Positions 651 to 24,365 of a stretch of DNA of 26,144 nt are shown piece by piece. Each line of letters starts with the position of its first letter. Positions within the stretch are counted from its first letter, which is position 1. This DNA is from a virus: IMG/VR virus record IMGVR_UViG_3300031741_000018, positions 1 through 26,144 of that record, one strand, 5' to 3'. Under the pieces are notes generated by a model. The model was not told where the DNA came from. It ran no database searches and was given only the letters and a program-made list of their open reading frames with translations. The position numbers and the translations under genes were made by a program.

Positions 651-2197
651 ATTCCATCACCACCCGGAGTTACAACCTCGCCAACAACAGTCACAGTCCC
701 ATCACTATTAAGGATAACAGGCGTACCGTTAGGTAACGTACCGCTGGCTACGAAGTCTACACTAAGGCCACCGCCAGCAGCATCAGCCATAGTAGGAGCA
801 ACACCAGCACCACCGCTCGTCAATACCTGACCGACTGTCCCTGTTGTAACATAAGCGGGAGCACCAGCAGCATCATACGTGATTAGATTGCCGTCTGTGC
901 CATGTGCCATCTTTGCAAGAGTGATTGAGTTATCCGCTGGTACGATCTCGGCAATAGTCGTCCCACTATCTTTAATGAGTTTGCCTGTAACTCCATCAAA
1001 TACCGCGACCCTCTCGTCTACCGCTGAGGCAGGGCCGACTACGACACTCTCCGCTGGAAGATACGCAGTGTACCATACAGATCCAGTATAGACCCTCATC
1101 TCATCACTTGTAGTATTCCAGTACAGTGCACCGGTTAGCAGGGCGTTACCATCGTTATCCAGGGATGGATCAGAAGCCTTATCTCCTAGATATCTATCAT
1201 CAAACTCATCGTACTTAGTGTTCGTCAGTACTACATCAGCATTCGTAGTTACCACATCGGCTGCTGTGTCTATGGTATCTTGATTGGTTGCTACTAAGTC
1301 TGCTGCTGTATCTATAGTATCCTGATTGGTTGCTATTAGATCCAGTCCAGTCTGCACTCTGTCTGCCGCTGTATCTATGGTATCCTGATTAGTTGCTACT
1401 AAGTCTGCTGCTGTATCTATAGTATCCTGGTTGGTTGCTACTAAGTCTGCGGCTGTGTCTATAGTATCCTGATTGGTTGCTACTAGATCTAAGCCTGTCT
1501 GAACTACATCAGCGTTTGTAGAGACTACATCTAGCCCCGTTAAGACTACATCAGCGTTTGTAGAGACTACATCTAGCCCCGTTAAGACTACATCAGCGTT
1601 TGTAGAGACTACATCAGCATGCGTACTGACTACATCTAGCCCCGTTAAGACTACATCAGCATTCGTAGAGACTACATCAGCATGCGTACTGACTACATCC
1701 AGCCCCGTACTGACTACATCAGCGTTCGTAGAGACTACATCTAGCCCCGTTAAGATTACATCAGCGTTCGTAGAGACTACATCTAGCCCCGTTAAGACTA
1801 CATCAGCATTAGTAGCTACTAAGTCTGCCGCTGTATCTATAGTATCCTGATTGGTTGCTATTAGATCAGCGGCTGCTGATGTCTCCGAAGACAGTGCATT
1901 AGTCTCTGAGATACCTGCGGCTACTGCATGGGCTAAGGCCACTGCTGCACTAGCTGATCCCTTAGTGGCCCAGTGTAGTGCTGAGTATTCTCCTGGTACT
2001 ACTGGGCTATCCTCTGCTTCTTGTGCCCATTGCTCAGCCAGTAGTGCCCACTGCTCTACTGAGAGTTCTAGGGTTACGAGTGCTGCCTCAACGGTAGTGA
2101 AGCCACTATCAGCCTCATCATTAATATCATTAACATCCTTAGCGAATGCAATATCGCCATCTTTCACATCTGGCAACTTAGTGTAGAAAATCGACAT
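1..2197 (-). CDS. Tail fibre / receptor-binding protein, repeat-rich (3' end outside window)
   Basis: The frame opens at ATG 2197 and stays free of stops to base 1, so at least 732 residues are present and the C-terminus is missing. Residues 1-110 carry a phage-fibre N-terminus with Gln-Trp-Ala pairs and the motif GEYSALHWATKGSASAA, typical of fibres attached to short tails. Residues about 112-319 are heptad-like repeats (ADVVSTN, ADVVLTG, LDVVSTH), probably a trimeric coiled coil. Next come a KYDEFDDRYLGDKASDPSLD block and SITLAKMAHGTDGNLITYDA, both common in phage tail-fibre and collar proteins. The visible C-terminal part is a tandem 51-residue repeat (VAMLTSTKAIVTYQDGG core) that looks like beta-propeller or beta-solenoid blades. 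It is the last late gene seen, after the nozzle. The fibre assignment is firm; the receptor is unknown. Confidence 0.88.
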   Translation of the reverse strand, partial: MSIFYTKLPDVKDGDIAFAKDVNDINDEADSGFTTVEAALVTLELSVEQWALLAEQWAQEAEDSPVVPGEYSALHWATKGSASAAVALAHAVAAGISETNALSSETSAAADLIATNQDTIDTAADLVATNADVVLTGLDVVSTNADVILTGLDVVSTNADVVSTGLDVVSTHADVVSTNADVVLTGLDVVSTHADVVSTNADVVLTGLDVVSTNADVVLTGLDVVSTNADVVQTGLDLVATNQDTIDTAADLVATNQDTIDTAADLVATNQDTIDTAADRVQTGLDLIATNQDTIDTAADLVATNQDTIDTAADVVTTNADVVLTNTKYDEFDDRYLGDKASDPSLDNDGNALLTGALYWNTTSDEMRVYTGSVWYTAYLPAESVVVGPASAVDERVAVFDGVTGKLIKDSGTTIAEIVPADNSITLAKMAHGTDGNLITYDAAGAPAYVTTGTVGQVLTSGGAGVAPTMADAAGGGLSVDFVASGTLPNGTPVILNSDGTVTVVGEVVTPGGDGITAGTPTIFESANSIHISVAMLTSTKAIVTYRDEGNSSYGTSCILDVSGSTITAGTPTIFESASSSDTSVAMLTSTKAIVTYQDGGNSSYGTSCILDVSGSTITAGTPTIFESASSFYTSVAMLTSTKAIVVYRDGGNSYYGTSCILDVSGSTITAGTPTIFESASSFYISVAMLTSTKAIVTYQDGGNSSYGTSCILDVSGSTITAGTPTIFESAS
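1240..1860 (-). repeat. 21/42-bp repeats encoding a fibre heptad stalk
   Basis: Short units such as gactacatctagccccgtt and tagagactacatcagc recur throughout. They encode seven-residue units of the form x-D-V-V-x-T-x. A second unit type, TNQDTIDTAADLVA, occurs at both ends of the array. The period fits a coiled-coil fibre shaft. Near-identity of the DNA means length changes by slippage or recombination are likely. Confidence 0.88.
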
Positions 2198-2199
2198 AC

Positions 2200-2412
2200 T
2201 TAGCTCCTGTCAGCAATCTGGAGTACCTTCTTGATGAAGTCGGTCTCTGTACTTGCGTGTTTCATCTTATTACATATAGCACAACAGGCTACAGTGTTCT
2301 CAAGGGTATACTCTATAGAGTCTAACTGCTTCCTAGCATATATTACTTAGTTCTGCTGCATCCTTATGTTTTATATATGGATCATTCAGAACTTCTTGTT
2401 GACTTTGCCATC
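2200..2412 (-). pseudogene. Decayed HNH endonuclease remnant
   Basis: Between the nozzle and the fibre genes, the minus strand encodes the tail end of an HNH/zinc-finger homing endonuclease: LDSIEYTLENTVACCAICNK followed by MKHASTETDF and IKKVLQIADRS, with a stop at 2200-2202. The CC-x-x-CN-x-MK pattern after TLEN is characteristic of phage HNH proteins. The frame has no start codon and is closed upstream by TAA. A neighbouring frame just upstream reads RWQSQQEVLNDPYIKHKDAA, which resembles the N-terminal part of such proteins, so the middle, with the first cysteine pair and the catalytic core, appears deleted. This is a free-standing homing-endonuclease relic; I see no intron core around it. 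Confidence 0.7.
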
Positions 2413-4272: not shown

Positions 4273-4275
4273 TAG

Positions 4276-4953: not shown

Positions 4954-4954
4954 A

Positions 4955-5194
4955 CTAATCCTCCAGTAACTTGATTAGGGTCTTACGGCTAGCGTTCCCC
5001 TTGTACTTTATGCCTTCTACGTCTAGTAAATCCTTTAACTCCCTTACAGGTACACCGACTAGTGGATCTACTGTCTCCGGAGGCATATATACACCGAGGT
5101 ACACATAGTCTCCTTGGTATTTCTCGTAGTGTTCCCTAGTTATTGTGGCCTTAGAGCCATTAGGTATCACTTCTACGTTAATATATTCTTGCAT
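4955..5194 (-). CDS. Small protein with HeH/SAP-like C-terminus
   Basis: This 79-residue protein has a short beta-like first half (EYINVEVIPNGSKATITREH). The last 30 residues, VRELKDLLDVEGIKYKGNAS then RKTLIKLLED, fit the helix-extended loop-helix (HeH/LEM/SAP) pattern often found in small phage proteins beside head-completion genes. It may bind DNA or act in head-tail joining. The SD aaggtaa precedes ATG 5194. It is the first gene after tRNA-Ser and forms a tight run with the adaptor and nozzle. One near-copy of the dispersed palindrome (5072-5085, one mismatch) lies in its coding sequence as the MPPET segment. Confidence 0.72.
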   Translation of the reverse strand: MQEYINVEVIPNGSKATITREHYEKYQGDYVYLGVYMPPETVDPLVGVPVRELKDLLDVEGIKYKGNASRKTLIKLLED

Positions 5195-5276
5195 TAGTTA
5201 CCTTATAAGTTATTATGGTGGACCCACTAGGACTTGACTAAGAGCCTACACTAGCTGTGTTATGGATCCTCTATTC

Positions 5277-5359
5277 TGGCAGAAGGTAGACGAATCGAAC
5301 GCCCATGTTTCCATGCCCACGGTATTCGACACCGCTTAGCCCCTTGGCTAGTACCTTCT
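5277..5359 (-). tRNA. tRNA-Ser(CGA)
   Basis: Read on the minus strand, the 83-nt element has a 7-bp acceptor stem (agaaggt with accttct), discriminator G and encoded CCA. The D stem is tagc/gcta. The anticodon stem is gcggt/accgt with loop gtcgaat, giving anticodon CGA. A variable arm with an atg-gaaa-cat hairpin marks a class II tRNA. The T loop is ttcgatt on a G-U-containing stem. Long variable arm, G73 and CGA agree on serine, reading UCG codons. It lies in the late transcript between the Lys-rich peptide gene and the 79-aa gene. The variable arm is short for a tRNA-Ser. Confidence 0.9.
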
Positions 5360-5617: not shown

Positions 5618-5625
5618 AACTCTCC

Positions 5626-5919: not shown

Positions 5920-5933
5920 AACATCCCCTATCA

Positions 5934-5968: not shown

Positions 5969-5982
5969 CTATTAGTAACTTT

Positions 5983-6036
5983 GTATATTCTCGGGGTGTA
6001 GTAGGCTCAACACCTCGCTATGCCCCGAGAATATAC
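5983..6036. promoter_or_regulatory. 14-bp perfect inverted repeat between late genes
   Basis: gtatattctcgggg (5983-5996) and ccccgagaatatac (6023-6036) form a perfect 14-bp stem with a 26-nt loop, between the 141-aa gene and the endolysin. The minus-strand transcript continues with aaagttac rather than a U-tract. Candidate factor-assisted terminator, RNase III cleavage site or mRNA-stabilising structure. Confidence 0.65.
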
Positions 6037-6041
6037 AACTG

Positions 6042-6056
6042 GTGTCTCCGGAGACA
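6042..6056. repeat. Dispersed palindrome copy, intergenic
   Basis: gtgtctccggagaca, perfect 14-bp core at 6043-6056. It lies six bases from the 14-bp inverted repeat and just beyond the stop of the 141-aa gene. A partial copy, ctccggagac, follows at 6075-6084. Confidence 0.9.
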
Positions 6057-6091
6057 GGTGATATTACCCCACTCCTCCGGAGACTTATAGC

Positions 6092-6517
6092 TTATGCCCC
6101 AGCATCCAGTGTAGCACTAGTCGCGTACCATGTGCCTGCACTATGGTACACTAGTTTAACAGTCTCACCCGTGGCAGCATCACTAACGATAGTTACACCA
6201 CCAGCCAGTGCAGTACCATTGAGTATGATAATCTGGGTGGTATCAGGGTCTATTGTCATAACGAATGCACCAACCTGGGTGATATCAAGTGACATCCCAA
6301 CGGCTACTGCAGGTAATGTGATAGTAGCTACAGCAGTTACGAAGACCGTAGTGTTATAGCACTGTGCTGCCGTTAAGACCTGTGAGGCTGCATACGTTGC
6401 TACGGCTGGTAAGGTACTCCTAGCCGCTACATCCGTATAGAGCTCCGCAATATCCGCGTTTACTTTGCGTCGAGTCCCTGTCCAGAAGTCTCCGCCCATC
6501 AATGGATCTTGTCCCAT
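6092..6517 (-). CDS. Small virion-associated protein of unknown function
   Basis: A 141-residue protein starting at ATG 6517, chosen because aaggag lies six bases upstream; the longer frame to 6568 would read through a dispersed palindrome and has no SD. Residues 1-40 are mixed (MGQDPLMGGDFWTGTRRKV). The rest is a small-residue, beta-rich segment with regular Thr/Val/Ala strands (ITLPAVAVGMSLDITQVGAF, IIILNGTALAGG) ending GTWYATSATLDAGA. Such folds occur in head-decoration or small fibre-like proteins. Its place directly after the major capsid gene favours a decoration role, but I do not recognise the family. Confidence 0.7.
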   Translation of the reverse strand: MGQDPLMGGDFWTGTRRKVNADIAELYTDVAARSTLPAVATYAASQVLTAAQCYNTTVFVTAVATITLPAVAVGMSLDITQVGAFVMTIDPDTTQIIILNGTALAGGVTIVSDAATGETVKLVYHSAGTWYATSATLDAGA

Positions 6518-6530: not shown

Positions 6531-6548
6531 TGTGTCTCCGGAGACACA
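6531..6548. repeat. Dispersed palindrome copy upstream of the 141-aa gene
   Basis: tgtgtctccggagacaca is an 18-bp perfect palindrome. It lies immediately 5' of the SD (aaggag) of the 141-aa gene in the minus-strand mRNA. A half-copy, atgtctccggg, follows at 6571-6581. Confidence 0.92.
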
Positions 6549-6590: not shown

Positions 6591-7407
6591 TTATGCTACA
6601 TACTTTTTAACCACTACATTAACCATAGCGGTATCTAGAACTACAGCACGTCCGTAGACGAAGAGTGTTCTCCAATACTCACCAAAACTGTCGGGTATTT
6701 TTAAGGTATCAACCTTATCAACCTGAGATGCGAAGGTCGCGGCCTCTTTGGTACCAGCCTGTACATACCATGCGGTATCAGAATCACCATCAGTAGCGGT
6801 GAAGAGGTTATTGGACTGGTAAATCACTGTCCGATCTACCATACCTACGAGACCATTACGGATAACACCCGTAGTATCACCGGTGATATCAGCAGCCTTC
6901 AGGTCACCCTTCTTGAGTAGTGCGCAGTACCATGCAGGTAAGACGATGTAACGTCCCTCTGATGGGATATCTGCTTCATCAAGTACCTGGTTGATATCAA
7001 CGATCAAGTCGATAGCACCTGCGTAACCTGTACCAGTCTCAGTGGCTATAGATACAGTAGTTCCAGTACCAGCCAGTACACCGAGATTAATATTAGAGGA
7101 GAGTGCACCAGCAGTAGCTCCTTTGTTAGTAGCGTTTGCCTTAGTGCTCATGTACTCAAAAACTTCCTTGTCAACTGTAATAGCGATGCGGAGTGCAGCA
7201 TCCTTAGCAAACATATTAACCAGCTCAATATCTGCCTGAGCCTTATTAATATCATCCACCTGGAAAGCTGAGTAGACACCTTGGTCGATGAGTAACTCAG
7301 TTGCATCCTTAGTGGGTACTTGATAATTTAATGTATCACCAATAGTGTAGGATGATACGGTGATCTCAGGTGTTTTACGGATATGCACCTTAGCGCCTTG
7401 GCCTTTG
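6591..7407 (-). CDS. Major capsid protein, exon 3 (bulk of the protein)
   Basis: This is the main part of the coat protein that builds the icosahedral shell. The apparent 265-aa ORF starting at GTG 7388 is not the true gene. Coding continues upstream as KGQGAKV (7407-7389) and is joined through two introns to exon 2 (8307-8363) and exon 1 (8502-8629). The spliced length is 1002 nt, or 333 residues. Joined sequence around the junctions reads VLRNFYENTFYHDV, DYEGEIKGQGAKVHIRKT. KVHIRKTPEITVSSYTIGDT and YEVPT-like NYQVPTKDATELLID are typical of a widespread P22-coat-like (HK97-fold) phage capsid family, as is the ending AVVLDTAMVNVVVKKYVA. It follows the scaffold gene as expected. Splicing is inferred from frame continuity and intron core motifs. 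Confidence 0.88.
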
Positions 7408-8306
7408 CAAAGTCTTATGACTTCGGACTATCACTTGCCTTATAGGCTTCCTTTGTTTAGTCTCTGCGGGTAGTGTGGAATGCTATCATCTGTTCTATTG
7501 CCGCTACCTTTTTAGGTATCAAAGCATACTTCCTGAGTTGCTTTAAGAATCTCAGGGCCTTAGTCCTTGAGTTCCTACCTAGTGATAACTGCCAGAACCT
7601 ACATCCATCCTTACGGGTCCCTATCGACCCTCCGTGGATACGGTGTAGATGATTCAAGATAAATGCATCGTAGTCTGCTGAACCAACGAACAGCTTTAGC
7701 TCATTAGTTATAGCCGTACTACCATTACTGTAAGTTCTCTTCCTACCAATACGTACCCTATAGTGACCGTCACCATCAAAGTATCCCGCCATCCAAGCCC
7801 ATGCTAAGTGCTTAGGCTCCTTTCTCCATCGGGAGTTCAGACGAGAGCATCTTATATACTCAGTGAGATCATCCTTAGATGCTACACTCCACCCCTTCAG
7901 CTCACTTAAGAGCCAGAGGATATTATCAGAGTGGGTTGCTTTGATCCTCAGGTGCTTCCCGATTCTCCCTAGGAGAATATGAGATTCCTTATTATTCAAA
8001 GTCCATCTGTCAGCATATACAGTCCCTAGTCTATAGGCTTTGCAAAGCTGGTGCAGTATAGTTGTATCAGTCTGGCATATAGCCATCTGCAAGTAGCTAC
8101 TGTATCTCCCGTTAGAGTTCTTCTTGAAGTGTATTCCGATATATCCATCGGAATCAAGGAGACCAGCAGTATACTTATTCAGTTGTTCAGAGTGCTTACG
8201 AAGTGTATCTATCTTCTTGCTTAGCATTTCTTCTCCTCATAGTGAGTGAATGACTTTCCCTCGGATTTTACCCCGTTATTTAAAAGGAATTAAGAGACCT
8301 TATATA
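7408..8306 (-). ncRNA. Group I intron 2 of the capsid gene, with endonuclease ORF
   Basis: An 899-nt intron between exon 2 and exon 3. At the 5' site gagat ends in U and pairs with gtctc just inside the intron, giving the conserved U-G pair in P1. The intron ends in G before caaaggcc. Core elements in order are P3 5' strand ttccttt, aacggggtaa (P4/P5), a cactcactatgagg hairpin (P6), the ORF, acccgcagagacta (P4 3' and P7 5'), aaaggaa (P3 3'), a gcct-ata-aggc hairpin (P8), gatagtcc (P7 3') and an aagtc-ataa-gactt hairpin (P9). gagacta with gatagtcc is the classic group I P7 signature. Confidence 0.88.
7457..8227 (-). CDS. Intron-encoded LAGLIDADG homing endonuclease
   Basis: A 256-residue monomeric homing endonuclease with two LAGLIDADG motifs, TAGLLDSDGYI (residues 20-30) and MAGYFDGDGHY (146-156), each with the acidic residues needed for metal binding. 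It would cut intronless capsid alleles and spread the intron. The SD gaggag lies five bases before ATG 8227, inside the intron next to the P6 hairpin. The last residues (HTTRRD) and stop are written in the intron core: acccgcagagactaa is both coding and the P4/P7 strand. So the ORF end is constrained by RNA folding. It is on the same strand as the capsid gene and looks intact. Confidence 0.93.
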   Translation of the reverse strand: MLSKKIDTLRKHSEQLNKYTAGLLDSDGYIGIHFKKNSNGRYSSYLQMAICQTDTTILHQLCKAYRLGTVYADRWTLNNKESHILLGRIGKHLRIKATHSDNILWLLSELKGWSVASKDDLTEYIRCSRLNSRWRKEPKHLAWAWMAGYFDGDGHYRVRIGRKRTYSNGSTAITNELKLFVGSADYDAFILNHLHRIHGGSIGTRKDGCRFWQLSLGRNSRTKALRFLKQLRKYALIPKKVAAIEQMIAFHTTRRD

Positions 8307-8363
8307 ATCTCGCCTTCATAATCGGTGTTCATTACATCATGATAAAACGTGTTTTCATAGAAG
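8307..8363 (-). CDS. Major capsid protein, exon 2 (57-nt micro-exon)
   Basis: Only 57 nt, encoding most of FYENTFYHDVMNTDYEGEI, which fills exactly the gap between the N-terminal exon and KGQGAKVHIRKT. The following base pattern gagat|t fits a 5' splice site. The 3' boundary of intron 1, gtgatg|cttc, has the required terminal G. The reading frame is kept across both junctions (57 = 3 x 19). Confidence 0.85.
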
Positions 8364-8501
8364 CATCACGGACTATCGCATAGCTTGTAGCTTCCTCTCG
8401 CTTAGTCTCTGCGGGTGGCGAGCACCTCATAGTGAGTGCGTTACCTTCCCTCGGATATTACCCCGTTATTCAGAGAGGATTTTATTAGGAACTTCTAGTT
8501 C
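8364..8501 (-). ncRNA. Group I intron 1 of the capsid gene (~138 nt, no ORF)
   Basis: The same core as intron 2 in miniature. P1 is ttaggaa with ttcctaa. The exon start cttct can pair with agaag (P10). P3 is tcctctc with gagagga. Then come aacggggtaa (P4/P5), a gcac-tca-cta-tga-ggtgc hairpin (P6), acccgcagagacta (P4 3' and P7 5'), an agct-aca-agct hairpin (P8) and gatagtcc (P7 3'). The splice position is the least certain part. Frame continuity favours aggaa|gaac, but that puts A, not U, at the 5' site; aggaagaa|ctag is the other in-frame choice. Confidence 0.8.
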
Positions 8502-8629
8502 TTCCTAAGGACCTTCTTGCTGTAGAGTTCCGGTACGTACTTAGTACTATCATAGTAAGAACTCTTAATAGTACCGGAAGTCGTGGCGGTATTGTCATAT
8601 GCTGTATTTGTACTTGGACGAAGTGCCAT
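8502..8629 (-). CDS. Major capsid protein, exon 1 (N-terminus)
   Basis: Starts at ATG 8629 with a weak SD-like aggtaatt upstream, 12 bases after the scaffold stop. It encodes MALRPSTNTAYDNTATTSGT then IKSSYYDSTKYVPELYSKKV and LR(N), the standard beginning of this coat family. Read without splicing it would stop after 44 residues at a TAG in intron 1, so the unspliced ORF is a dead end. Confidence 0.87.
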
Positions 8630-9630: not shown

Positions 9631-9645
9631 GTGTCTACGGAGACA
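9631..9645. repeat. Dispersed palindrome copy with one mismatch
   Basis: gtgtctacggagaca lies just after the stop of the 64-aa gene and before the scaffold gene; a replaces c at the centre. Confidence 0.8.
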
Positions 9646-9646
9646 G

Positions 9647-9843: not shown

Positions 9844-9858
9844 GTGTCTCCGGAGACA
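9844..9858. repeat. Dispersed palindrome copy that supplies a ribosome-binding site
   Basis: gtgtctccggagaca sits exactly upstream of ATG 9841; its ggag half is the only good SD for that gene. If the palindrome folds in mRNA, the SD would be in the stem. Confidence 0.85.
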
Positions 9859-12252: not shown

Positions 12253-13659
12253 CTATAACCACCCACGTTTCCTTACCACTCTCGCCTTAGCACTACGTCT
12301 AGTCATACTCAGTGTGCTATCAAAGAAGGTGAAGCCTAGAGCATCTGCATGATCTGGGCTGGATATCTTCTTACCACTAGCATCTACTAACTTCTTCTTG
12401 CTAGTTAATTGCTCGGCCATCTTGCCCGAGTAGCCCCATGTCATTGTCCCTAGCTCCTGCTTGAGCTCATGGTGGTCTGGGATGGAACCTTCCTCAAGCC
12501 AAGCCCTCATCTCTCCCCACAACTGTGTTCTAACATTTGCATATTGACGAGGATCAGTAGATGGGAAGCCTGATCGGACATCGGTGACTGGTATACCCAA
12601 TTGCCTTGCACGGTCAGCGATAGGTCCGCCCATCCCGTCAGCATCCATAAAGATAGCTGAGGCCGAGGTGCTGAAGTAGATATCTTTTAACTTCGATACG
12701 ATCTGCATAGTATCCTCAGTCTTCAATTCATACTGATCTATAACCTTGAAGCCCTGTCGGACACAGAAGACTGTAGCATCACCAGATTTAGAACGGGCCA
12801 CATCGACTCCTATGATTATAGGAAATCGTATGTACTGTGATTGGTGCACGACCCGTTGGGCTGCCTCTTCGACGAGGACCATCGGGATGTATGTAGTGCC
12901 ATCAGCTCTGGGGAACTCCCCATCTACCATGACTCTCCATTCATCACTATCCTCTCCATAAAGCTCCCTGATCTCGTCTATGAACTTCTGGCTAGTCTGG
13001 GCCGACTTATGTGCAGTGAAGGTCCTAAGCTCCCATCCTTCAGGCTTCTTAGTAAAGAGGTCGGTGTAGAAGGGTTCGCTACCCCTCTCTGGGTTAGATA
13101 CTATAATTACATATCCGCCCTCATGGGCAGTACCTAAGGATCCTAGTGCATTACTGTAGGTATTATCCGGTATGCCAGACCCCTCATCAAAGAGGTAGAC
13201 CTGGGTATGTGAATGGACACCTGATTGTCTCTCCCGCTTAGTACTCTTAGCGGATACGCATACTGCCATATTTGTCTCATCGTCCTTCAGTACTAAGTTA
13301 TCATACTTGATAGCTATCTTATCAGCTACATCCCTCACCATCCGTTTATGGTGTTGGTTGATCTCCCTCATGTATACATCAATTAATTGATCATAACTAG
13401 GTGAGAGTATACGTATATTCACATCCGGATGACAGAAAATAAACCAGAGGGTTAGTCCAGCCAGTAAGAAAGTCTTCCCAGTTCCCTTACTGGATTTAAT
13501 GCATATACGGCACCCAGGCTTGACGAGTGTGATGAACTCCTCTTGTTGCTCATCCAGCTCTACCTTAAGGATATCTGTGAAGAATTCCTTAGGACGTGAG
13601 TGGTAATATAGTTGGGCATCTATTAACGCTTGTTGCTTCTTACTTACCTTCCTGCTCAT
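12253..13659 (-). CDS. terL: Terminase large subunit
   Basis: A 468-residue DNA-packaging motor with an N-terminal ATPase and C-terminal nuclease. Walker A is KSSKGTGKT (residues 55-63). Walker B with catalytic Glu is VYLFDEG (154-160). The RNase H-like nuclease acidic residues appear as GVDVARSKSGD (Asp286, Asp294), FMDADGMGG (Asp339, Asp341) and SPDHADALGF (Asp436, Asp439). The length is usual for phage large terminases. It overlaps the 3' end of the small-subunit gene by 20 bases, which implies coupled translation. All key residues are present. Confidence 0.96.
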   Translation of the reverse strand: MSRKVSKKQQALIDAQLYYHSRPKEFFTDILKVELDEQQEEFITLVKPGCRICIKSSKGTGKTFLLAGLTLWFIFCHPDVNIRILSPSYDQLIDVYMREINQHHKRMVRDVADKIAIKYDNLVLKDDETNMAVCVSAKSTKRERQSGVHSHTQVYLFDEGSGIPDNTYSNALGSLGTAHEGGYVIIVSNPERGSEPFYTDLFTKKPEGWELRTFTAHKSAQTSQKFIDEIRELYGEDSDEWRVMVDGEFPRADGTTYIPMVLVEEAAQRVVHQSQYIRFPIIIGVDVARSKSGDATVFCVRQGFKVIDQYELKTEDTMQIVSKLKDIYFSTSASAIFMDADGMGGPIADRARQLGIPVTDVRSGFPSTDPRQYANVRTQLWGEMRAWLEEGSIPDHHELKQELGTMTWGYSGKMAEQLTSKKKLVDASGKKISSPDHADALGFTFFDSTLSMTRRSAKARVVRKRGWL

Positions 13660-14389
13660 AGACCTCCCCCTTGGCCTTGGCCATTAAGATCTCAAGTCCA
13701 CTACGGGAGTCAGTCTCACTAGTCTCTATTCTATCAGTAAAGGCACCTATGGAGCGACCTAGCATCTCTATAGCCTTCAGGAGATTAGCACGTTGTCTAG
13801 GTTCATACGCTACCACCTCCTTAAGTTGTTCTATCTGGTTAACTAGCTCCATCTGTACCTGGGGCTTCTCTAGGTTATACTCCTTTATTCTCCTATCCTG
13901 CTCCTCCTTGATGATGGAACGGACTGGAGCTAAGTTCTGGAGGAACTGTCCTCGTATCCTGTAGACATACTCCTTGGTAGCCTTCCTTACACTCTTAGGT
14001 AGACCCATCGCGAGTCCGGACTCCGTGAGGGAGAACCTATTATCCCCAGTCTGTGCGTAGTAGTAGGCATACACTTCCGCCTGTGTCTCTACTGCTGCTA
14101 TGAAGTCACGTGTTAAGAACTTAGTTGGTGTCTTGCCTTGTTGTAACTTGAGGGCTGCAGTGTGTGTACCGGCTACGAGATCATTAGTCTCCCTGATGAT
14201 CTGCATGTTCTTGAGTGTTTTCTGGATGAGTCCGGAGATGATACGGGTGTCTCCGGAGACACTCTTCGCTATCACTGTGACGGGGGTACCTTCTGAGTAC
14301 TGTAAGAGTATCTGGTACTTCTGGGAATCAGTTAGCTCCTGTGTTACTGGTTGCTCCTCCGGTACCTTAAGTCTCTTAATGGTAGTCAT
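13640..14389 (-). CDS. terS: Terminase small subunit (by position and fold signs)
   Basis: A 249-residue protein directly upstream of and overlapping the large terminase. Residues 20-60 (SQKYQILLQYSEGTPVTVIA onward) look like a helix-turn-helix for recognising the packaging site. The middle is helical, and residues 150-215 are charged helices suited to oligomer formation. Small terminases bind pac/cos DNA and regulate the motor. The SD aggat lies six bases before ATG 14389. It is the first gene after the late promoter. A perfect palindrome copy falls inside the HTH-coding part (as VSGDT). Confidence 0.78.
   Translation of the reverse strand: MTTIKRLKVPEEQPVTQELTDSQKYQILLQYSEGTPVTVIAKSVSGDTRIISGLIQKTLKNMQIIRETNDLVAGTHTAALKLQQGKTPTKFLTRDFIAAVETQAEVYAYYYAQTGDNRFSLTESGLAMGLPKSVRKATKEYVYRIRGQFLQNLAPVRSIIKEEQDRRIKEYNLEKPQVQMELVNQIEQLKEVVAYEPRQRANLLKAIEMLGRSIGAFTDRIETSETDSRSGLEILMAKAKGEVYEQEGK
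14247..14262. repeat. Dispersed palindrome copy inside the small terminase
   Basis: gtgtctccggagacac, perfect over 16 bp, read as VSGDT in the protein. A further tccgga occurs at 14231-14236. Confidence 0.92.
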
Positions 14390-14498
14390 TTAATATCCTA
14401 TTAGTAATAATATCTTTATATATTCAGTATTCCTATGGTTAGAACCTAGTATTCCTTAGATATTTCTGGAATCCCTTCCGTCATGTTGTCCTATAGTA

Positions 14499-14527
14499 TA
14501 TATAGCACCTCAGTGACGTTTTGTCAA
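14499..14527 (-). promoter_or_regulatory. Late-module promoter, sigma70-like
   Basis: On the minus strand: perfect -35 TTGACA (14527-14522), 17-bp spacer, -10 TATATA (14504-14499). Transcription would start near 14492 and run through the terminase genes into the late block. It is the best promoter match in the window. Confidence 0.7.
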
Positions 14528-14704
14528 CCCCTCATTACTAATGTTTCTCGTATTCCTACTGATCCCCGGGGTTTACCTGCTAATATCAAGTGTTCAGGGC
14601 GTAAACTAGCCGTGTGTGGATTGGTTAGTTGGTACTGGAGGTATTCTATAGGATTATGCTCTAGGAGCCACGGGGGCTACCACCCGCTATCCGCGGTACC
14701 GTTC

Positions 14705-14747
14705 GCCTGTTTTAGGGGGGTGGGGCCCGAAAGGCCCGGGGGCAGGC
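14705..14747. other. GC-rich nested hairpin in the divergent region
   Basis: Outer gcctg/caggc (14705-14709, 14743-14747) encloses inner gggcc-cgaaa-ggccc (14723-14737) plus G- and C-runs. It lacks a T-tract on either side. It may separate the leftward promoter from the RNA region to the right, or belong to the structured RNA. Confidence 0.55.
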
Positions 14748-14790
14748 CCTTCGTCTCCCCATAACCCCAAGACCCTTCCATCCCTCCTGG

Positions 14791-15530
14791 CTCCGGAGAC
14801 ACCAATCACCTATCAGAGAGTAATACTATGAGAGGAGTTCGGCTCTACTCGTTACCACACTGGAACACTTTGACAATAGCATAGGACGACGGACTGGGAA
14901 GCAAGCCAACCGAGTAAGGTTAGAACGGGACTGCAAGGGCCTAGGAAGCGAGTTGAACCTCAGGGGATGGAGAGGATACGGGGACTTCAGGTAAAAAAGC
15001 GGAAACGGGAACCATACCAGAGTGAACCAAGCAAGGTCAGGATCTGGATAGCGGACAGGTTAAGTAGTTGGTGAGTATCTCTCGAGCACGAAGTCAAACT
15101 TACAATATGGTCGGCAAAGATTCTCCGACTGAAAACAAATGGTGTTATCAGCTTAGCAAGCTAGGAAATCCCGAATCTCAAGGGCCTGATATGGGGCGCT
15201 AGGAATACTAAATACACATATAGTGCTGGACTAACTACCAGTGCAAGAAGACCGGATAATAATGTCCGGCAAGTATCATACACATCCAAAGTCAGCAGGT
15301 CTATTGATGTACCAAGGGTAAGTTCACGGAATGATAGCCGTCCCTGATTGCATCCTTAGGATCAAGTATAATGAGTAAATAGAGAAAAGGTTGCTAGTAG
15401 TAATGAACCTGAGTATCGAGAGTGCTATGCTCTATAAAGAATACGAAGTCCTGACAGGCAAGGTGTCTCCATAGGCACCAGAGAGTTTAGGTCCTTGTTA
15501 GTTATGGCGGACATAAAACCAGCTAGTCAC
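14791..15530 (+). ncRNA. Candidate large structured noncoding RNA
   Basis: About 740 nt with no plausible ORF, SD or codon pattern, but dense in local stems. Examples are ccaga/tctgg around 15028-15056, gtcgg/ccgac (15110-15129), tatcag/ctgata (15146-15191) enclosing agctt-agc-aagct, ggcgcta/tagtgct near 15195-15230, ccgga/tccgg near 15254-15272, acgg/ccgt near 15330 and agag/ctct near 15419. The ggcgcta/tagtgct stem needs two G-U pairs that exist only in plus-strand RNA, which sets the orientation. Size, GA-rich loops and a phage setting recall GOLLD and ROOL RNAs. I cannot confirm membership; it could also be a replication or packaging control region. Boundaries are approximate and no promoter is clear. 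Confidence 0.5.
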
Positions 15531-15549
15531 AGGTGGTCTCTCAATTGTA

Positions 15550-15594
15550 TAACTGTTAGATGTAAGTCTACATCATGCTTACATCTAGCGGTTA
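15550..15594 (+). promoter_or_regulatory. 17-bp hairpin upstream of the ring-nuclease gene
   Basis: taactgttagatgtaag (15550-15566) pairs over all 17 positions with cttacatctagcggtta (15578-15594) in plus-strand RNA, using two U-G wobbles; the loop is 11 nt. Wobbles instead of mismatches argue for selection on RNA. It ends 38 nt before the start codon and has no U-tract. Confidence 0.65.
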
Positions 15595-15632
15595 TGTAGT
15601 TGATGTATGAATATTAACAAGTAGGTGTCTTA

Positions 15633-16106
15633 ATGAGGTATTTATCTGATACATTCAGTCTGGAGATGCTAGATGTTTCTCAGCTCCGTAACGTAACAGT
15701 GCGCCCTATATCAGCAAGTACTATTGCTTACATTATGGGTAGGCGTGAGGTCCATAGCTGTATTGGTCATGCGCATACAGCAGCCACTTTGTCTGCTCTA
15801 CTAGGTAAAGAGGTGGTAACTAATCATTGCAGTATATCACTGTATCCAGGAGATACACTATATGTTGCGTCTACATTACCTGATGGTATGGCAATCCAGT
15901 TCCTTATTATTGAGGTGGTTCAGCATCTAGTTCCTTACATAGGTCCTGATTATGATAAGGGCTCCATATATGGTGCAATACGCACTAGGGGAGAATTACT
16001 GGCCGATGAGTTCTGCGGTACCTGTGCAGATATGCAGGATAAATATGGTAACTTTTGTGTCCAAATTATCTCCAGTGATTTCCGTGCTACTCTTTGCGAT
16101 AACTAG
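15633..16106 (+). CDS. acrIII-1: AcrIII-1-like viral ring nuclease (DUF1874)
   Basis: Residues 1-97 match the DUF1874 pattern. The start is MRYLSDTFSLEML, followed by SCIGHAHTAATLSALLGKEV, NHCSISLYPGDTLYVA, TLPDG and IQFLIIEVV. In characterised AcrIII-1 proteins this fold is a dimer that degrades cyclic tetra-adenylate and so shuts down type III CRISPR signalling. His46, in IGH, lies where the catalytic histidine (His47 of SIRV1 gp29) is found. The Asn-Arg often seen before the second strand is Asn-His here. A 55-residue C-terminal extension with three Cys (FCGTCADM, NFCVQ) is not part of the core family. It is the first rightward gene, fitting early expression. SD is weak (aggtg). Confidence 0.82.
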   Translation: MRYLSDTFSLEMLDVSQLRNVTVRPISASTIAYIMGRREVHSCIGHAHTAATLSALLGKEVVTNHCSISLYPGDTLYVASTLPDGMAIQFLIIEVVQHLVPYIGPDYDKGSIYGAIRTRGELLADEFCGTCADMQDKYGNFCVQIISSDFRATLCDN

Positions 16107-16434: not shown

Positions 16435-17172
16435 ATGAGTAATGAGATCGACTATACCATAATCAAGAGTGTAAACATTGAGGTAGCAATGAATGCATCG
16501 GAGAAGACTGATAAAGCTGCTGGGACAGCTAAGAAAGAAGGCGAGCTCTGCTGGGCCCACACGGTGTGTACAGTAATGGATCGTATCGACTTGGGTCTCC
16601 TCGATCAGGACAATGCTAGTAAGGATAATATTGAGGTTACAGGCAAAGTGATCAAGAAGATACTAGCAGACCATATAATCGCTACTACCACTATACCTGC
16701 CGAGGGTAAGAATAGAGTTGGTAAGACCTTTAAGACACATAATGATGATGATGGGACAGTCAAATGGGGCTCATGGTCAAAGACTAGACGTATCTTTGAT
16801 TATGCCGGTGTTATTAGTAAGATACTATGTTTCGGCCATGCTGCTTCATTGTATCCTGAGATGGGGAAGGTTGGTGGTCGCGGCAAGGTACTAGCATTGT
16901 GCAAAGTTGCTGAGGGACATATGAAGGCAATTGAGAGGCTAAGCGATGCATTACAGTCTAATTTAGACATGGTGGCAAATAGTACGGAAGTTGCCCATGC
17001 ACATTTGAAGGTATCCGCATTAACAGTGAATGATCTAGATCCCGTGGATGAGATGAAAGCACTTATTACTAAACTGGATGGTCTCCTGGGAGTGGTTGCA
17101 CCCTCAGAACGTAAGGCAGTACTGAATGACTTAGGCGGGTTAAGCTCACATTTTAATAAAGATGAGGTTTAG
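16435..17172 (+). CDS. Early phage protein of unknown function (245 aa)
   Basis: A soluble, mainly helical 245-residue protein; the SD aaggg lies nine bases before ATG 16435. Notable segments are GELCWAHTVCTVMDRIDLGL (about 36-55), a Gly/Lys-rich middle with NRVGKTFKTHNDDDGTVKWG (about 93-112), FDYAGVISKILCFGHAASLY (about 120-139) and an amphipathic helical C-terminus. There is no signal peptide, Walker motif or zinc cluster. It is flanked by hairpin-bearing gaps. I do not recognise the family. Confidence 0.75.
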   Translation: MSNEIDYTIIKSVNIEVAMNASEKTDKAAGTAKKEGELCWAHTVCTVMDRIDLGLLDQDNASKDNIEVTGKVIKKILADHIIATTTIPAEGKNRVGKTFKTHNDDDGTVKWGSWSKTRRIFDYAGVISKILCFGHAASLYPEMGKVGGRGKVLALCKVAEGHMKAIERLSDALQSNLDMVANSTEVAHAHLKVSALTVNDLDPVDEMKALITKLDGLLGVVAPSERKAVLNDLGGLSSHFNKDEV

Positions 17173-17870: not shown

Positions 17871-17970
17871 AACGTGTATTCAAATGGGAATATTGATGAT
17901 AGTAGTGGTATACCCAGTGGTATACGTAATCGCTAGGCTACTAAGAGGTGTCTCCGGAGACACTAGGTAG
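17857..17970 (+). CDS. Small single-pass membrane protein (37 aa)
   Basis: MEYLKTCIQMGILMIVVVYP then VVYVIARLL forms one hydrophobic span flanked by Lys and Arg. An aaggtgg sequence precedes ATG 17857. The C-terminal VSGDTR is encoded by a perfect palindrome copy. Small membrane peptides in phage early regions often act on host membranes or defences, but nothing here specifies a role. Confidence 0.5.
   Translation: MEYLKTCIQMGILMIVVVYPVVYVIARLLRGVSGDTR
17948..17963. repeat. Dispersed palindrome copy at a small-gene terminus
   Basis: gtgtctccggagacac, perfect over 16 bp, forms the last coding bases of the 37-aa ORF. Confidence 0.92.
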
Positions 17971-18814: not shown

Positions 18815-18832
18815 GGTGTCTCCGGAGACACC
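18815..18832. repeat. Dispersed palindrome copy before the VWA gene
   Basis: ggtgtctccggagacacc, an 18-bp perfect palindrome, lies eight bases after the 58-aa stop and 14 bases before the VWA start. A separate ggggag lies between it and ATG 18847. Confidence 0.92.
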
Positions 18833-18846: not shown

Positions 18847-20763
18847 ATGTCTATATTCACAATGCAAGAATCCAGCATGTTCGCAAGAGCACTAGCATCT
18901 CAGGGTAATGTGGAAGTTAAGCAGTCAGACGAGATTACAGATCCCTATAGTGATACCGACGGCACTATACACATTGGTACACCTTCAATCTACAACGAAT
19001 CTGCTTACATGGGCAGCTTACACAGGGAGATTAGTAAGCAATGTGGAGATATGACATTCTTTCAGGACCTGGATGTCAGTAAGAATCCATTGCAAAATAC
19101 CTGTAAGAATATCCTGCAGGCACAACGCACTGAGTATAATCAAGAAGGTATCTACGAGGGCCGAGATCGTATCCTAAGTGATGCATACGATCAGAACATA
19201 AGGGATGCAGGTGGTATTAAGAAGCTAGTAAAGGGGCTAGGAGAAAGTAATGCCACTGTTGCAGCTATGATCTATCTTGGTAACGAGATGAGAAATGACT
19301 GGAGCAAGAGTTTTAATTATTGCGATGATATCCCAGCTAACGTCAAGGAGGAGGTAGATAGGCTGGAGACTATGCTCGAAGAGGACTGGCTGGAGCTAGG
19401 GAGTACCGAGGACTTAAGTAATTTATTGGAACGTATCCAGAATGAGGGAACACAACAAGAAGGGGGAGACGAAGAGGGATCAAGTGATACTGGAGAAGAT
19501 AAGGGATCAAGTGATACTGGAGAAGATAAGGGATCAAGTGATACTGGAGAAGATAAGGGATCAAGTGATACTGGAGAAGATGAGGGAGTACCGTCGGATG
19601 GACAGGGAGTACCATCAGGTGAAGAGGGATCAAGTGATACTGGAGAAGATAAGGGATCAAGTGATACTGGAGAAGATAAGGGATCAAGTGATACTGGAGA
19701 AGATAAGGGATCAAGTGATACTGGAGAAGATAAGGGATCAAGTGATACTGGAGAAGATGAGGGAGTACCGTCGGATGGACAGGGAGTACCATCAGGTGAG
19801 GAGGGATCAGGCGATCCAGATACACAGTCTCTAAGTGAAGGTCCCCGAGGTAGAGGAGTCGGAGCGACGGATGCCTACGAGTCCCTTAAATCAATTGGTC
19901 TCGTAAAGGAACCGAGTAAGCTCAATGAGTATGTACAGCCCGATAGGGTACCTTATCAGCCAAGGAGTAACGATTTAGAAACAATAGATATCACAAAGAG
20001 GGCAGCGGAGGATACTCCCTGGTCAGGTGCTATTAAGGAAGCTCTTGGTACCTTCACATTATCCCGTAAGATCAAGAAGCACTTAATAGCACAGAAGCAG
20101 GTAGGTTATGAACTAGGCAAGAAGCGTGGTAAGATATGCGCTAAGAATATTGGCCGTATCTATGCGGGTCACAATCAGCCCAGGATCTTCAAGGAGAAGT
20201 GTGCCTCTAAGATACAACAAGATACCGCTATCTTCATACTGGGAGATTGTAGTGGCAGCATGTGTGGTGACAGGTATGAGACGAGTGCCTGCTGCCAAAT
20301 CAGTATGTCAGAAGTACTTAGTGTATTACAGATACCACACATGATGATGCAGTTCTCTACAGGAGGTAGGAGTAGAAAACACTTCATAATGAAGTACTTC
20401 ACGGAACGGGGTGTCTCCAGAGACACCCTTCTCCAACGTTATGGCTCACATGGTATAGGTATGGGCTGTAATGCTGATGGGGAGGCTGTTACAGAAGCTG
20501 CACAGATACTAGCACGGAGACCGGAGACCAATAGGATCCTGATAGTACTATCAGATGGATCACCTGTTTATATGAGTGGTGGCGATCAGTTCCTGACAGA
20601 TACCGTCAAGGAGATCGAGGATTCAGGGGTTGTATCAGTCATTGGGATCGGCATACAGACACATAGTGTCAAGAGATACTACAAGACCTCCAAGGTTATT
20701 ATGGAATTGAGTGAGCTAGAGGGTGTATTGTTAAATTTACTAAAAGAGACTGTACTAAAGTGA
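18847..20763 (+). CDS. VWA-domain protein, CobT-like
   Basis: A 638-residue protein. Residues 1-205 are helical and resemble the N-terminal half of CobT-like proteins, although the usual HExxH-type segment is replaced by GSLHREISKQCGD. Residues about 211-319 are acidic GSSDTGEDK repeats, probably disordered. Residues 455-638 form a von Willebrand A domain. MIDAS residues are in GDCSGSM (Asp467, Ser469, Ser471). CNADGEA (541-547) and LIVLSDGSP (565-573) match the NxDGEA and ISDGAP signatures of the CobT C-terminus. It sits 13 bases before an AAA+ gene, as in CobS-CobT and MoxR-VWA pairs, so the two probably act as one metal-dependent remodelling machine. No cobalamin genes are nearby, so cobalt chelation is unlikely to be the role. 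Confidence 0.85.
   Translation: MSIFTMQESSMFARALASQGNVEVKQSDEITDPYSDTDGTIHIGTPSIYNESAYMGSLHREISKQCGDMTFFQDLDVSKNPLQNTCKNILQAQRTEYNQEGIYEGRDRILSDAYDQNIRDAGGIKKLVKGLGESNATVAAMIYLGNEMRNDWSKSFNYCDDIPANVKEEVDRLETMLEEDWLELGSTEDLSNLLERIQNEGTQQEGGDEEGSSDTGEDKGSSDTGEDKGSSDTGEDKGSSDTGEDEGVPSDGQGVPSGEEGSSDTGEDKGSSDTGEDKGSSDTGEDKGSSDTGEDKGSSDTGEDEGVPSDGQGVPSGEEGSGDPDTQSLSEGPRGRGVGATDAYESLKSIGLVKEPSKLNEYVQPDRVPYQPRSNDLETIDITKRAAEDTPWSGAIKEALGTFTLSRKIKKHLIAQKQVGYELGKKRGKICAKNIGRIYAGHNQPRIFKEKCASKIQQDTAIFILGDCSGSMCGDRYETSACCQISMSEVLSVLQIPHMMMQFSTGGRSRKHFIMKYFTERGVSRDTLLQRYGSHGIGMGCNADGEAVTEAAQILARRPETNRILIVLSDGSPVYMSGGDQFLTDTVKEIEDSGVVSVIGIGIQTHSVKRYYKTSKVIMELSELEGVLLNLLKETVLK
19477..19803 (+). repeat. 27-bp tandem repeats inside the VWA gene
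   Basis: The 27-bp unit (GSSDTGEDK) occurs four times from 19477, then a 42-bp spacer (GVPSDGQGVPSGEE), then five times from 19627, then the same spacer again. So there are two levels of duplication. Copies are almost identical in DNA, which points to recent expansion and possible length variation. Confidence 0.95.
20410..20427. repeat. Dispersed palindrome copy with central mismatch inside the VWA gene
   Basis: ggtgtctccagagacacc; one base breaks symmetry at the centre. It is read as GVSRDT in the linker between MIDAS segments of the VWA domain. Confidence 0.85.
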
Positions 20764-20776
20764 GGAGGGTCTACAG

Positions 20777-21934: not shown

Positions 21935-21944
21935 GAGGGGCGGT

Positions 21945-23144
21945 ATGTATAAGGATCCAATTGTCTTTAAGTCTAATGGTGTCTATGGGACCATCCATAG
22001 ACATAATAATCATACCCTGGACCTTGGAGGTGGGAATGATTATTCTATACTAAGGTCTGATGAGATTGAAGTTACCTGTGACCTCCCTATACTATATAAG
22101 ATGCATGGTAATGGAGAGTGGCAGGAGCTTAGGTTCATGTTGGTACTAGGTAGGTCCCCTGGGATACGGAGAGTCATAACCTGCAAGGGAGTTAAGGATA
22201 GGGTGTGGGATTCTCCTATTGTCGGAGCAGTGACTAAGGCATACAGTTCGGTACTAGAGACACGTCTTCAGTCCGCATGGAATAAGAAGCGGAATAGGGA
22301 TGGGTGGACAGAGCATAAGGGAGCTGCCGTACTCAGTGAGCCTATGCTCTTACATCATTACGACCTCTTCAAGGACCGTATCACACTGCCAGCACTTCAG
22401 TTCCCTAAGCTTAATGGTATCCGGTGTATATATGAGGTAGGGTATGGTATGTTATCACGGAAGCGTAACCTCTTTGATCTCCCACACCTTAAGGGACAAT
22501 TAAGAAAGTTAGAAAGGACCGTGGATGGTGAGCTATGGCATCCTGACTGGGACTTAGAGACTATAGTCTCCCGTGTCAAGGGGGACCATAAGTATGATGA
22601 TACTAAGGAGCTGGAGTTCCATATCTTTGATAGACCACATGGTGGCAGCTACCTGCAGCGTATGGCAGTATTGATCAAGGATCTGAAGGATGTCTCCGGA
22701 GACACTCCTAATATCAAGGTTGTTCCGATGAAATTAGTCAACACTTATGAGGAGATAGGTATAAACCATGAGATCATCAAGAAGATGAAGGGTGTTGATG
22801 GTAGTGTTGTGAGGAATCTTAACTGTCCATATGAGTGGAATGGTAGATCATATAATGTCTTGAAGATCAAGGATATTATAAGTCGTGAGTTCGTAGTGGA
22901 TGCAGTCCTTTGTGATGAGGACGCTAAGCATGGCAGAATGATTAAGTTCTCCTTCGCTAGTGGAGCTGGAAGCTTCCTTGTAGTACCTAATTGGAGTAAA
23001 GAGAGGAGGTCTATTAAGTACGCCGAGTATCAGGTTGGAGATGAGGTCTTTATAGGCGATAGGTTCACGGTAGACTTTAGAGAGTGGACAGCTAAGGGGT
23101 TACCAAGACATGTAGTATCAACGACTGCCCGTGATTACGAGTAG
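21945..23144 (+). CDS. ATP-dependent DNA ligase
   Basis: A 399-residue ligase that seals nicks in phage DNA. I start at ATG 21945, eight bases after taggagggg; an upstream ATG overlaps the AAA+ gene without SD. Motif I is PKLNGIR with Lys155 as the AMP-accepting residue; the usual KxDGxR Asp is Asn here. Motif III is VDGELWH (193-199), IIIa EFHIFD (224-229), IV VDGSVVRN (284-291), V VLKIKD (305-310), followed by an OB-fold C-terminus. The first 140 residues precede the catalytic core and start with a small beta domain, so the protein is longer than minimal phage ligases. A palindrome copy encodes VSGDT at 250-254 in a loop. Confidence 0.9.
   Translation: MYKDPIVFKSNGVYGTIHRHNNHTLDLGGGNDYSILRSDEIEVTCDLPILYKMHGNGEWQELRFMLVLGRSPGIRRVITCKGVKDRVWDSPIVGAVTKAYSSVLETRLQSAWNKKRNRDGWTEHKGAAVLSEPMLLHHYDLFKDRITLPALQFPKLNGIRCIYEVGYGMLSRKRNLFDLPHLKGQLRKLERTVDGELWHPDWDLETIVSRVKGDHKYDDTKELEFHIFDRPHGGSYLQRMAVLIKDLKDVSGDTPNIKVVPMKLVNTYEEIGINHEIIKKMKGVDGSVVRNLNCPYEWNGRSYNVLKIKDIISREFVVDAVLCDEDAKHGRMIKFSFASGAGSFLVVPNWSKERRSIKYAEYQVGDEVFIGDRFTVDFREWTAKGLPRHVVSTTARDYE
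22691..22704. repeat. Dispersed palindrome copy inside the ligase gene
   Basis: tgtctccggagaca is perfect over 14 bp; flanking bases (a, c) break longer symmetry. Confidence 0.88.
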
Positions 23145-23206
23145 TTACCTGAAGGGCTTGGTGACTAAGACCTTACTGAATGCTGTAGAATATTTAAGGA
23201 GAGATT

Positions 23207-23803
23207 ATGAGTAATGGAAAGTGTCTATGTATAAACTATCATGGTTCTTTATATACGCAAGGTAGAGTCTATGGGTATACATATGAACCTGGTGGACAAA
23301 TTAGAATCATGGCGAATAATGGCTCTAGTTATGGCTACGATTTACAAGAGTTCTATGATTCATTTAAGTTTTTATCAGCAGCCCAATCGGTTAAAGCAGA
23401 GGGGGATACAGTGACTAAGAAGTCTACGGAGAGCTATACATTCAATGTACAATCCCAAGACCAAATAGATCTATTTGAGATAATGGAGTGCTTGACACGA
23501 GAGGCACCAGTTGGTATAGTACATACCAGTAATCAGAAGATAGCGGTAGTACTCCACTCATGCATTTATTCAAAGGCTGAACTAATGCCTAAACGGTTCA
23601 TTAAGGAGCTTGATGCTGCAATAAGTGATCTTGAAGGGGAGGTCAGATTCGGACTAGAGGATACATTCCAGGTAAACTTGGCCCCATTAGATAGTAAGAA
23701 GATCAACAGAGTTACGGCAGCTATTAAGGCTATACGTTCTGGCCAAATCAAGAAGAAGTATCGTCAGGCACTTACTGTTCGTGTTGATCTATTGGAACTA
23801 TAA
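23207..23803 (+). CDS. Early phage protein with SH3-like N-terminus (198 aa)
   Basis: The SD aaggagag precedes ATG 23207. Residues 1-55 (CLCINYHGSLYTQGRVYGYT, then DLQEFYDSFKFL) follow the pattern of small SH3-like barrels common at the start of phage proteins of unknown function. The middle (70-130) is mixed. The C-terminal half has helices (LMPKRFIKELDAAISDLEGE) and a basic end, SGQIKKKYRQ. No enzyme motif is seen. It lies between the ligase and zinc-ribbon genes in the same run, so a nucleic-acid role is possible. Confidence 0.75.
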   Translation: MSNGKCLCINYHGSLYTQGRVYGYTYEPGGQIRIMANNGSSYGYDLQEFYDSFKFLSAAQSVKAEGDTVTKKSTESYTFNVQSQDQIDLFEIMECLTREAPVGIVHTSNQKIAVVLHSCIYSKAELMPKRFIKELDAAISDLEGEVRFGLEDTFQVNLAPLDSKKINRVTAAIKAIRSGQIKKKYRQALTVRVDLLEL

Positions 23804-23811
23804 GGAGACGT

Positions 23812-24012
23812 ATGAATAAGAGAGATGAAGAGAGGTACCTGAAGGGCTGGGGTTCTGACTGCTTCATATGTAAGCAGAGGGTAGAGCAGTGGGATAAGAG
23901 TCTGCAGGAGAGTATAGTGAGATTAGAGAAGTACCCTGAGTGGGCAGGATCCCTAGTCATCAAGTACTATATGGCCTGTCCAGACTGTGCAGCTAAGGGG
24001 GAGTTGGTGTGA
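23812..24012 (+). CDS. Small zinc-ribbon protein (66 aa)
   Basis: The SD aaggaga precedes ATG 23812, eight bases after the previous stop. Cys17/Cys20 (DCFICKQ) and Cys56/Cys59 (MACPDCAAK) form a clear two-CxxC zinc ribbon, separated by a 35-residue helix. The C-terminus overlaps the next gene's GTG. Such proteins are common in phage early regions; the target is unknown. Confidence 0.78.
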   Translation: MNKRDEERYLKGWGSDCFICKQRVEQWDKSLQESIVRLEKYPEWAGSLVIKYYMACPDCAAKGELV

Positions 24013-24365
24013 GATGTATAACCGTTAGATTCAAGGAGTCAGCAGATACCAATGGCCCTGTATACTATAGGGGCCATCGGTATCCTGCGATAGTACAGAG
24101 GGATGGGTCATGGGACGTCGTAACTGCAACAGGTGAGGGGGATATAGTGCTTCCTCTCCATCAGAAGGATTTCGATATAGTGTCTCCGGAGACACCAGGA
24201 GAGGGAGTCTTCACATACATCTTCCGGTGTAAGGGGGTATGCGATGGTGAGAGCTGCACACTTATAACTGAGCACAGTACCCGTATAGCTATGCAACCGC
24301 CAACCCGGTGTCCATACAGTAATGATGAGAAAATGTCATGGACTACGGAGAGAGTGGGAGGCTAA
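24009..24365 (+). CDS. Small protein with SH3-like fold signs (118 aa)
   Basis: Starts at GTG 24009, overlapping the upstream stop as gtga, with gggggag just before. Residues 1-60 (RCITVRFKESADTNGPVYYR onward) look like a small beta barrel. The second half has four Cys (FRCKGVCDGESC, PTRCPYS), possibly a metal site. Residues 57-61 (VSPET) are a perfect palindrome copy read in a different frame from the VSGDT copies. Confidence 0.7.
   Translation: MRCITVRFKESADTNGPVYYRGHRYPAIVQRDGSWDVVTATGEGDIVLPLHQKDFDIVSPETPGEGVFTYIFRCKGVCDGESCTLITEHSTRIAMQPPTRCPYSNDEKMSWTTERVGG
24180..24195. repeat. Dispersed palindrome copy inside the 118-aa gene
   Basis: gtgtctccggagacac, perfect over 16 bp, translated as VSPET and followed by a Pro-Gly-Glu-Gly linker. 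Confidence 0.92.

Follow-up and report, generated by a model that had tools for sequence, protein, structure and literature searches.

What would a short perfect palindrome do when it recurs almost unchanged along a viral genome, within genes as well as between them? This question is raised by the window analysed here, i.e. an entire IMG/VR record of 26,144 bases, which is probably a genome fragment and to which the copy counts given for it refer. A first-pass annotation of this DNA had proposed three readings of the palindrome, namely a binding site for a phage protein, a tiny mobile palindrome, or an RNA hairpin used for processing. The first one is favoured by the present analysis, the binder itself being putative, while the two others are not. 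With a probability of about two in three, the palindrome would be a dispersed symmetric site bound by a DNA-binding dimer that the phage encodes and that acts on its whole genome.

The palindrome and its surroundings in the window

The palindrome TGTCTCCGGAGACA is present in the window as eight exact and five one-mismatch copies (Table 1). In dinucleotide shuffles, matches with no more than two mismatches average 0.07 and never get to 13. The eight exact and four one-mismatch positions reported in the first-pass annotation were all verified, and a fifth one-mismatch copy, TGGCTCCGGAGACA at 14788, had been overlooked. The extension of some copies to 18 bp, also mentioned at that stage, corresponds to two 18-bp perfect palindromes. 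Besides, the 16-mer GTGTCTCCGGAGACAC occurs five times and one further copy is degenerate, whereas the other palindromes of at least 12 bp found in the window are each present at most twice.

Table 1. Copies of the palindrome and two genes of the window, in positions of the whole record; G2, G3, and L239 are contigs described in the text.
Feature	Position	Strand	Context
One-mismatch copy, TGTCTCCGAAGACA	1880-1893		In tail-fibre gene, amid repeated SET/SAAA codons; weakest genic copy
One-mismatch copy, TGTCTCCGGAGGCA	5072-5085		In small gene 4955-5194
Exact copy	6043-6056		Intergenic
Exact copy in 18-bp perfect palindrome, TGTGTCTCCGGAGACACA	6531-6548		Intergenic, upstream of ribosome-binding site of gene ending at 6092
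One-mismatch copy, TGTCTACGGAGACA	9632-9645		Intergenic; change within central 4 nt
Exact copy	9845-9858		5' edge of gene 9647-9841/9859
Exact copy	14248-14261		In presumed terS (gene before terL); orthologous codons hold site in G3 (41871) and L239 (554)
One-mismatch copy, TGGCTCCGGAGACA	14788-14801		Divergent intergenic region
Degenerate copy, GGTGTCTCCATAGGCACC	15462-15479		Divergent intergenic region
Exact copy	17949-17962		Intergenic or 3' end of small ORF
Exact copy in 18-bp perfect palindrome, GGTGTCTCCGGAGACACC	18815-18832		Intergenic, upstream of cobT-like gene
One-mismatch copy, TGTCTCCAGAGACA	20412-20425		In cobT-like (VWA) gene; orthologous site in G2 and G3
Exact copy	22691-22704		In DNA ligase gene; ungapped against ligases of phages Moogle and Rouille
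Exact copy	24181-24194		In gene 24009-24365
Presumed terS	13640-14389	-	Assigned by location upstream of terL; G3 and L239 have orthologues; holds site 14248
245-aa early gene	16435-17172	+	Conserved in G2 and G3, within their site-dense early region

The head genes of the window lie on the minus strand and the early genes (cobT/cobS-like and ligase genes among them) on the plus strand. Between these divergent modules, about 1.2 kb without convincing genes (14390-15632) contain the copies at 14788 and 15462, and this stretch is a possible origin or promoter region. The presumed terS has no match to a curated family. Several features of the surrounding DNA can be recorded in their own right. 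A long hairpin with perfect arms (TTGTATATTCTCGGGG ... CCCCGAGAATATACAA; 5981-6037, -37.5 kcal/mol) adjoins the copy at 6043. The major capsid gene (6591-8629, minus strand) is in three parts, with exons near 8495-8629, at about 8362-8300 (FYENTFYHDVMNTDYEGEI), and at 7388-6591, and the longer of its two intervening sequences encodes a LAGLIDADG endonuclease (7457-8227); the split region has no Rfam family at threshold, and the capsid gene of the relative G3 is unsplit. Finally, a pentapeptide-repeat protein runs off the contig end (25574-26143, Pfam E 2e-64), and a 157-aa protein (15633-16106) weakly matches the archaeal-virus STIV B116-like family (E 7e-5, under the curated cut-off).

Private versions of the word in other phages

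In other viral contigs, the exact 16-mer was found in one contig that matches the window at 99.9% identity, i.e. the same phage, and in two unrelated contigs that were rejected as relatives, their single copies being at chance expectation. Single-protein scans with TerL and MoxR gave no relatives, and a TerL profile gave distant ones only. Three relatives were obtained with a CobS/MoxR profile, the motif being unused in the search: G1 (L095, 26.6 kb), G2 (L098, 32.5 kb), and G3 (L099, 57.6 kb, its ends overlapping by 123 bases). Mapping the palindrome in relatives had been suggested in the first-pass annotation, and each of these three protein-found contigs turns out to have its own version: G1 carries eight copies of TGCATCCGGATGCA, while G2 has 23 and G3 has 34 copies of GTCTCTAGAGAC at one mismatch at most, so that the window and the three relatives range from 8 to 34 copies. 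Like many of its relatives, the phage of the window has a private word that recurs roughly every 1-2 kb. The contigs L235/L239 come from the same metagenome as L098 (3300047478), sum with it to about 58 kb, and include the GTCTCTAGAGAC word in L239; L235/L239 and L098 may thus be two halves of one genome. G3 also encodes a protein that resembles sigma-70 region 2 and has an HTH at its C terminus (L103:4930-5397), conserved in G2, which is a candidate phage-encoded sigma factor, and Holliday-junction enzymes of two families, endonuclease VII and RusA (L103:450-896 and L103:2318-2758).

The trait extends to a cultured phage. A portal profile gave 80 more loci, and 21 records of that set were searched whole; the loci used for distribution counts were picked by protein similarity and not by motif, and some are near-duplicates. 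RHph_TM3_14A, a phage of Rhizobium which among named phages gives the best portal match (32%), carries the dyad GTTACCT-N4-AGGTAAC at 38-40 sites in 50 kb (40 at up to three mismatches). At one mismatch at most, GTTACCY-N4-RGGTAAC dyads occur three times or more in at least 13 of the 21 portal-relative records, the richest having 57 in 58.7 kb, versus none in any of the 21 for the reversed control pattern. Different dyads are present in several other portal relatives; a sensitive dyad scan also returned many GC-rich ones, which were set aside as mostly due to composition according to shuffles. The genes that RHph_TM3_14A detectably shares with the window's group are confined to the head module (capsid, scaffold, portal).

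According to the first-pass annotation, an equal density in unrelated phages of similar composition would have spoken against its reading of the palindrome. Such a density was not observed: in eight control phages (CRP-3, ICP2, HTVC115P, phiM6, ctYwJ313, ctsTn925, CRP-603, and vB_Pun_Y3) dyads are at shuffle level, and in 83 other viral loci (829 kb, nearly all obtained via TerL) no dyad reaches three copies. A scan of genome contigs for the RHph_TM3_14A dyad gave single chance matches only.

The sites could also be those of a host nucleoid or cell-division protein, which the phage would recruit or titrate by offering many of them. Different hosts would then account for different palindromes, and the bacterial sites of SlmA, Noc, and MatP are typically dispersed palindromes of comparable length. 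However, among 60 genomes (about 400 Mb) of the Rhizobium genus of genome G004, which may not be the exact group of R. etli, the RHph_TM3_14A dyad is nearly absent, with 8 occurrences at one mismatch at most versus 54 for the reversed control, and is not a host site or regulon in this one genus. In addition, the intermediate centres GTCTCCAGAGAC and GTCTCTGGAGAC also occur in G3, i.e. within one phage. Recognition by a host protein is therefore very unlikely. As to why the dyad is rarer than its reversed control in this genus, either composition or avoidance could be involved.

How the copies arise and in which form they are read

The sites located in genes use coding phases 0 and 2 only, the residues encoded being VSGD/VSRD or SPET/SLET in proteins unrelated to each other. 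Compared with their orthologues, these genic copies correspond to ungapped substitutions at nearly all places examined. In the tail gene, for instance, G3 has VSRD where the window has VNRD, without a gap; the ligase and cobT copies are likewise ungapped when compared to the orthologues of named phages, and copies in MoxR and other genes are ungapped against their orthologues as well. These alignments bear on the idea of a tiny self-copying element akin to REP, MITE, or Rickettsia palindromic elements, with which the presence of many near-identical copies in genes and gaps would agree. Insertion relative to an empty orthologous site characterises such elements, whereas the in-gene sites described here (ligase, cobT, tail gene, MoxR, and others) are gap-free against orthologues devoid of the site and, between phages, entire sets switch sequence together. 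The mobile palindrome of the first-pass annotation thus finds no support, and can be regarded as extremely improbable.

Two places are occupied in more than one phage, while about 0.008 coincidences would be expected (13 sites x 34/57,585). One is in cobT, where the window, G2, and G3 all have a site. The other is in terS, where the site is kept at the same codons in the window, G3, and L239, with GTC TCC GGA GAC (Ser-Gly) in the former and GTC TCT AGA GAC (Ser-Arg) in the two latter. The two central bases have thereby changed symmetrically, one change being silent and the other altering Gly/Arg. Although it is a single event, this symmetric replacement is as expected if selection acts on the palindrome as a DNA word. 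Codons conserved without the palindrome would, in the first-pass annotation, have told against the motif; in terS, it is the palindrome that is kept and a codon that has changed. In the DNA polymerase of G1, the amino acids VSRD are kept and the palindrome is absent (GTTTCTCGTGAC), as expected since G1 uses another word.

A further question is whether the copies are read as duplex DNA or as short stem-loops in mRNA, with a 6-7 bp stem and a CCGG loop, serving in processing, stability, or protein binding. As RNA, the window copies have folding energies of -7 to -9 kcal/mol; the changes in three of the five one-mismatch copies are confined to the central 4 nt, and the degenerate copy at 15462 retains the stem with one G-U pair. 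As a stable stem-loop is possible for its copies, the window by itself does not discriminate between the two forms. The other phages are more informative, as the compensation that characterises the stems of RNA hairpin elements is not seen in them: in G3, the two bases adjoining the 12-bp core form a Watson-Crick pair in 7 of 27 copies, while 13.2 would be expected if they varied independently, and the mismatches of RHph_TM3_14A are uncompensated in 39 cases and compensated in 2. Together, these two observations favour a reading of the site as duplex DNA, by a protein with two-fold symmetry. The hairpin remaining in G3 is moreover weak (-2.8 to -3.9 kcal/mol), and copies lie in genes of either orientation, a palindrome having no strand information. 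The processing hairpin of the first-pass annotation is disfavoured by the G3 flanking pair in particular, and an RNA role appears unlikely. Taken together, these data establish that the sites are genuine and private to the phages, that selection acts on them as DNA, and that they did not arise by insertion.

A putative genome-wide binding protein

From such sites, we infer a protein, its encoding by the phage, and a role at the scale of the genome. A dimeric phage-encoded protein would recognise the dispersed symmetric DNA site and would occupy the phage genome about every 0.8-3 kb, in genes and between them. It would probably organise, silence, or mark the whole genome, in the manner of stoperators or of KorB, Noc, and MatP, rather than switch single promoters. 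Since the version of the site differs from one phage lineage to the next, the specificity of the protein would shift over time, the sites being rebuilt singly by point mutations, including within genes.

Several observations bear on the genome-wide character of this role. The sites of G2 (coefficient of variation 0.44, 0/5000 simulations) and RHph_TM3_14A (0.67, P 0.006) are spaced more regularly than by chance, while this regularity is not significant in the window and G1 and is not seen in G3. Sites are enriched in intergenic gaps in the window, G1, G3, and RHph_TM3_14A, but not in G2, gene calls for the window and G1-G3 being those of a simple script that missed some genes (e.g. terS in G3); this enrichment would also fit local regulation. 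The 25 best Pfam families of G3 include no integrase, and this, together with the distribution and spacing of the sites, would favour a genome-wide role over a promoter-by-promoter one.

Concerning the binder, the 245-aa early protein is a possible candidate, with no family and a predicted structure at pLDDT 38; a RHph_TM3_14A protein of the same size and at the same place was discarded as its counterpart, their homology not being detectable. A protein of RHph_TM3_14A with three HTH motifs (24216-24767), whose gene is closely preceded by a site, was rejected as a general binder, its partial match being found in only one other dyad-bearing record (E 4e-5). Proteins of the ParB, MatP, or TetR type were recognised neither in G2 nor in G3, and ParB is not among the 25 best Pfam families of these two contigs.

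The dyads might instead be recognised by a packaging protein, be it TerS or a different one, and route the phage's own DNA into the capsid, as a distributed pac. Pac sites often lie within terS in other phages, and the best conserved copy is located in the presumed terS. Besides, the trait follows the capsid/portal/scaffold module common to RHph_TM3_14A, and the terminal overlap of G3 is compatible with circular permutation. Nevertheless, a single pac per genome is normally sufficient, no relationship is detectable between the TerS and TerL of RHph_TM3_14A and their counterparts in the window, and many copies lie in the early region, which makes a packaging signal improbable. Returning to the putative genome-wide binder, it is tentatively conceivable, and rather doubtful at this stage, that a broad clade of phages shares a so far undescribed genome-marking system made of a fast-evolving phage-encoded dimer and a private palindrome at about one per kb. 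Such a system, accompanied by no signs of lysogeny, could serve self-recognition, be it in packaging, replication, organisation, or the exclusion of relatives.

Comparison with known systems

Dispersed palindromes bound by dimers and acting over long distances are known from the KorB operators of plasmid RK2 and from the sites of Noc, SlmA, and MatP. These are plasmid or chromosome systems, and their sequences differ from the palindromes described here. Among phages, the stoperators of Cluster A mycobacteriophages (L5, Bxb1) are similar in being many short repressor sites along the genome that differ between phages. They are, however, asymmetric 13-bp sites oriented with transcription in temperate phages (PMC4351075), whereas the present sites are palindromic and without such orientation. 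The start-associated sequences of Cluster K mycobacteriophages are also repeated short words whose versions differ by subcluster, with inverted repeats in the extended form, but they stand at translation starts in one orientation (PMC3203893), while many copies are intragenic here.

The closest precedent is provided by the Cluster O mycobacteriophages, which match in kind and not in sequence or phage group. Corndog has 34 copies of the 17-bp dyad TGTTCGG-N3-CCGAACA, in gaps and genes, and the Cluster O repeats have no orientation, are absent from the host, occur in phages without integrase, and are lost by single point changes; their authors inferred a dimeric DNA-binding protein with a role other than promoter control and left the function unexplained (PMC4351075). 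The present phages likewise have tens of near-identical dyad sites per genome (8-34 in the window and G1-G3, 40 in RHph_TM3_14A), in gaps and genes and unoriented, and the absence from the host is paralleled, for the RHph_TM3_14A dyad, in one Rhizobium genus. The words of all the present phages, which are unrelated to Cluster O, differ from its dyad and, while one sequence serves that whole cluster, each lineage has its own version here.

In phages without lysogeny, dispersed palindromes had been noted once before, in Cluster O, and left unexplained there. A separate and large set of phages is now added, with lineage-private versions of the word, a conserved position where the word was replaced symmetrically, and a Rhizobium phage in culture. 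The many private words for one trait constitute natural replicates, and RHph_TM3_14A offers a laboratory system for the binder and its purpose.
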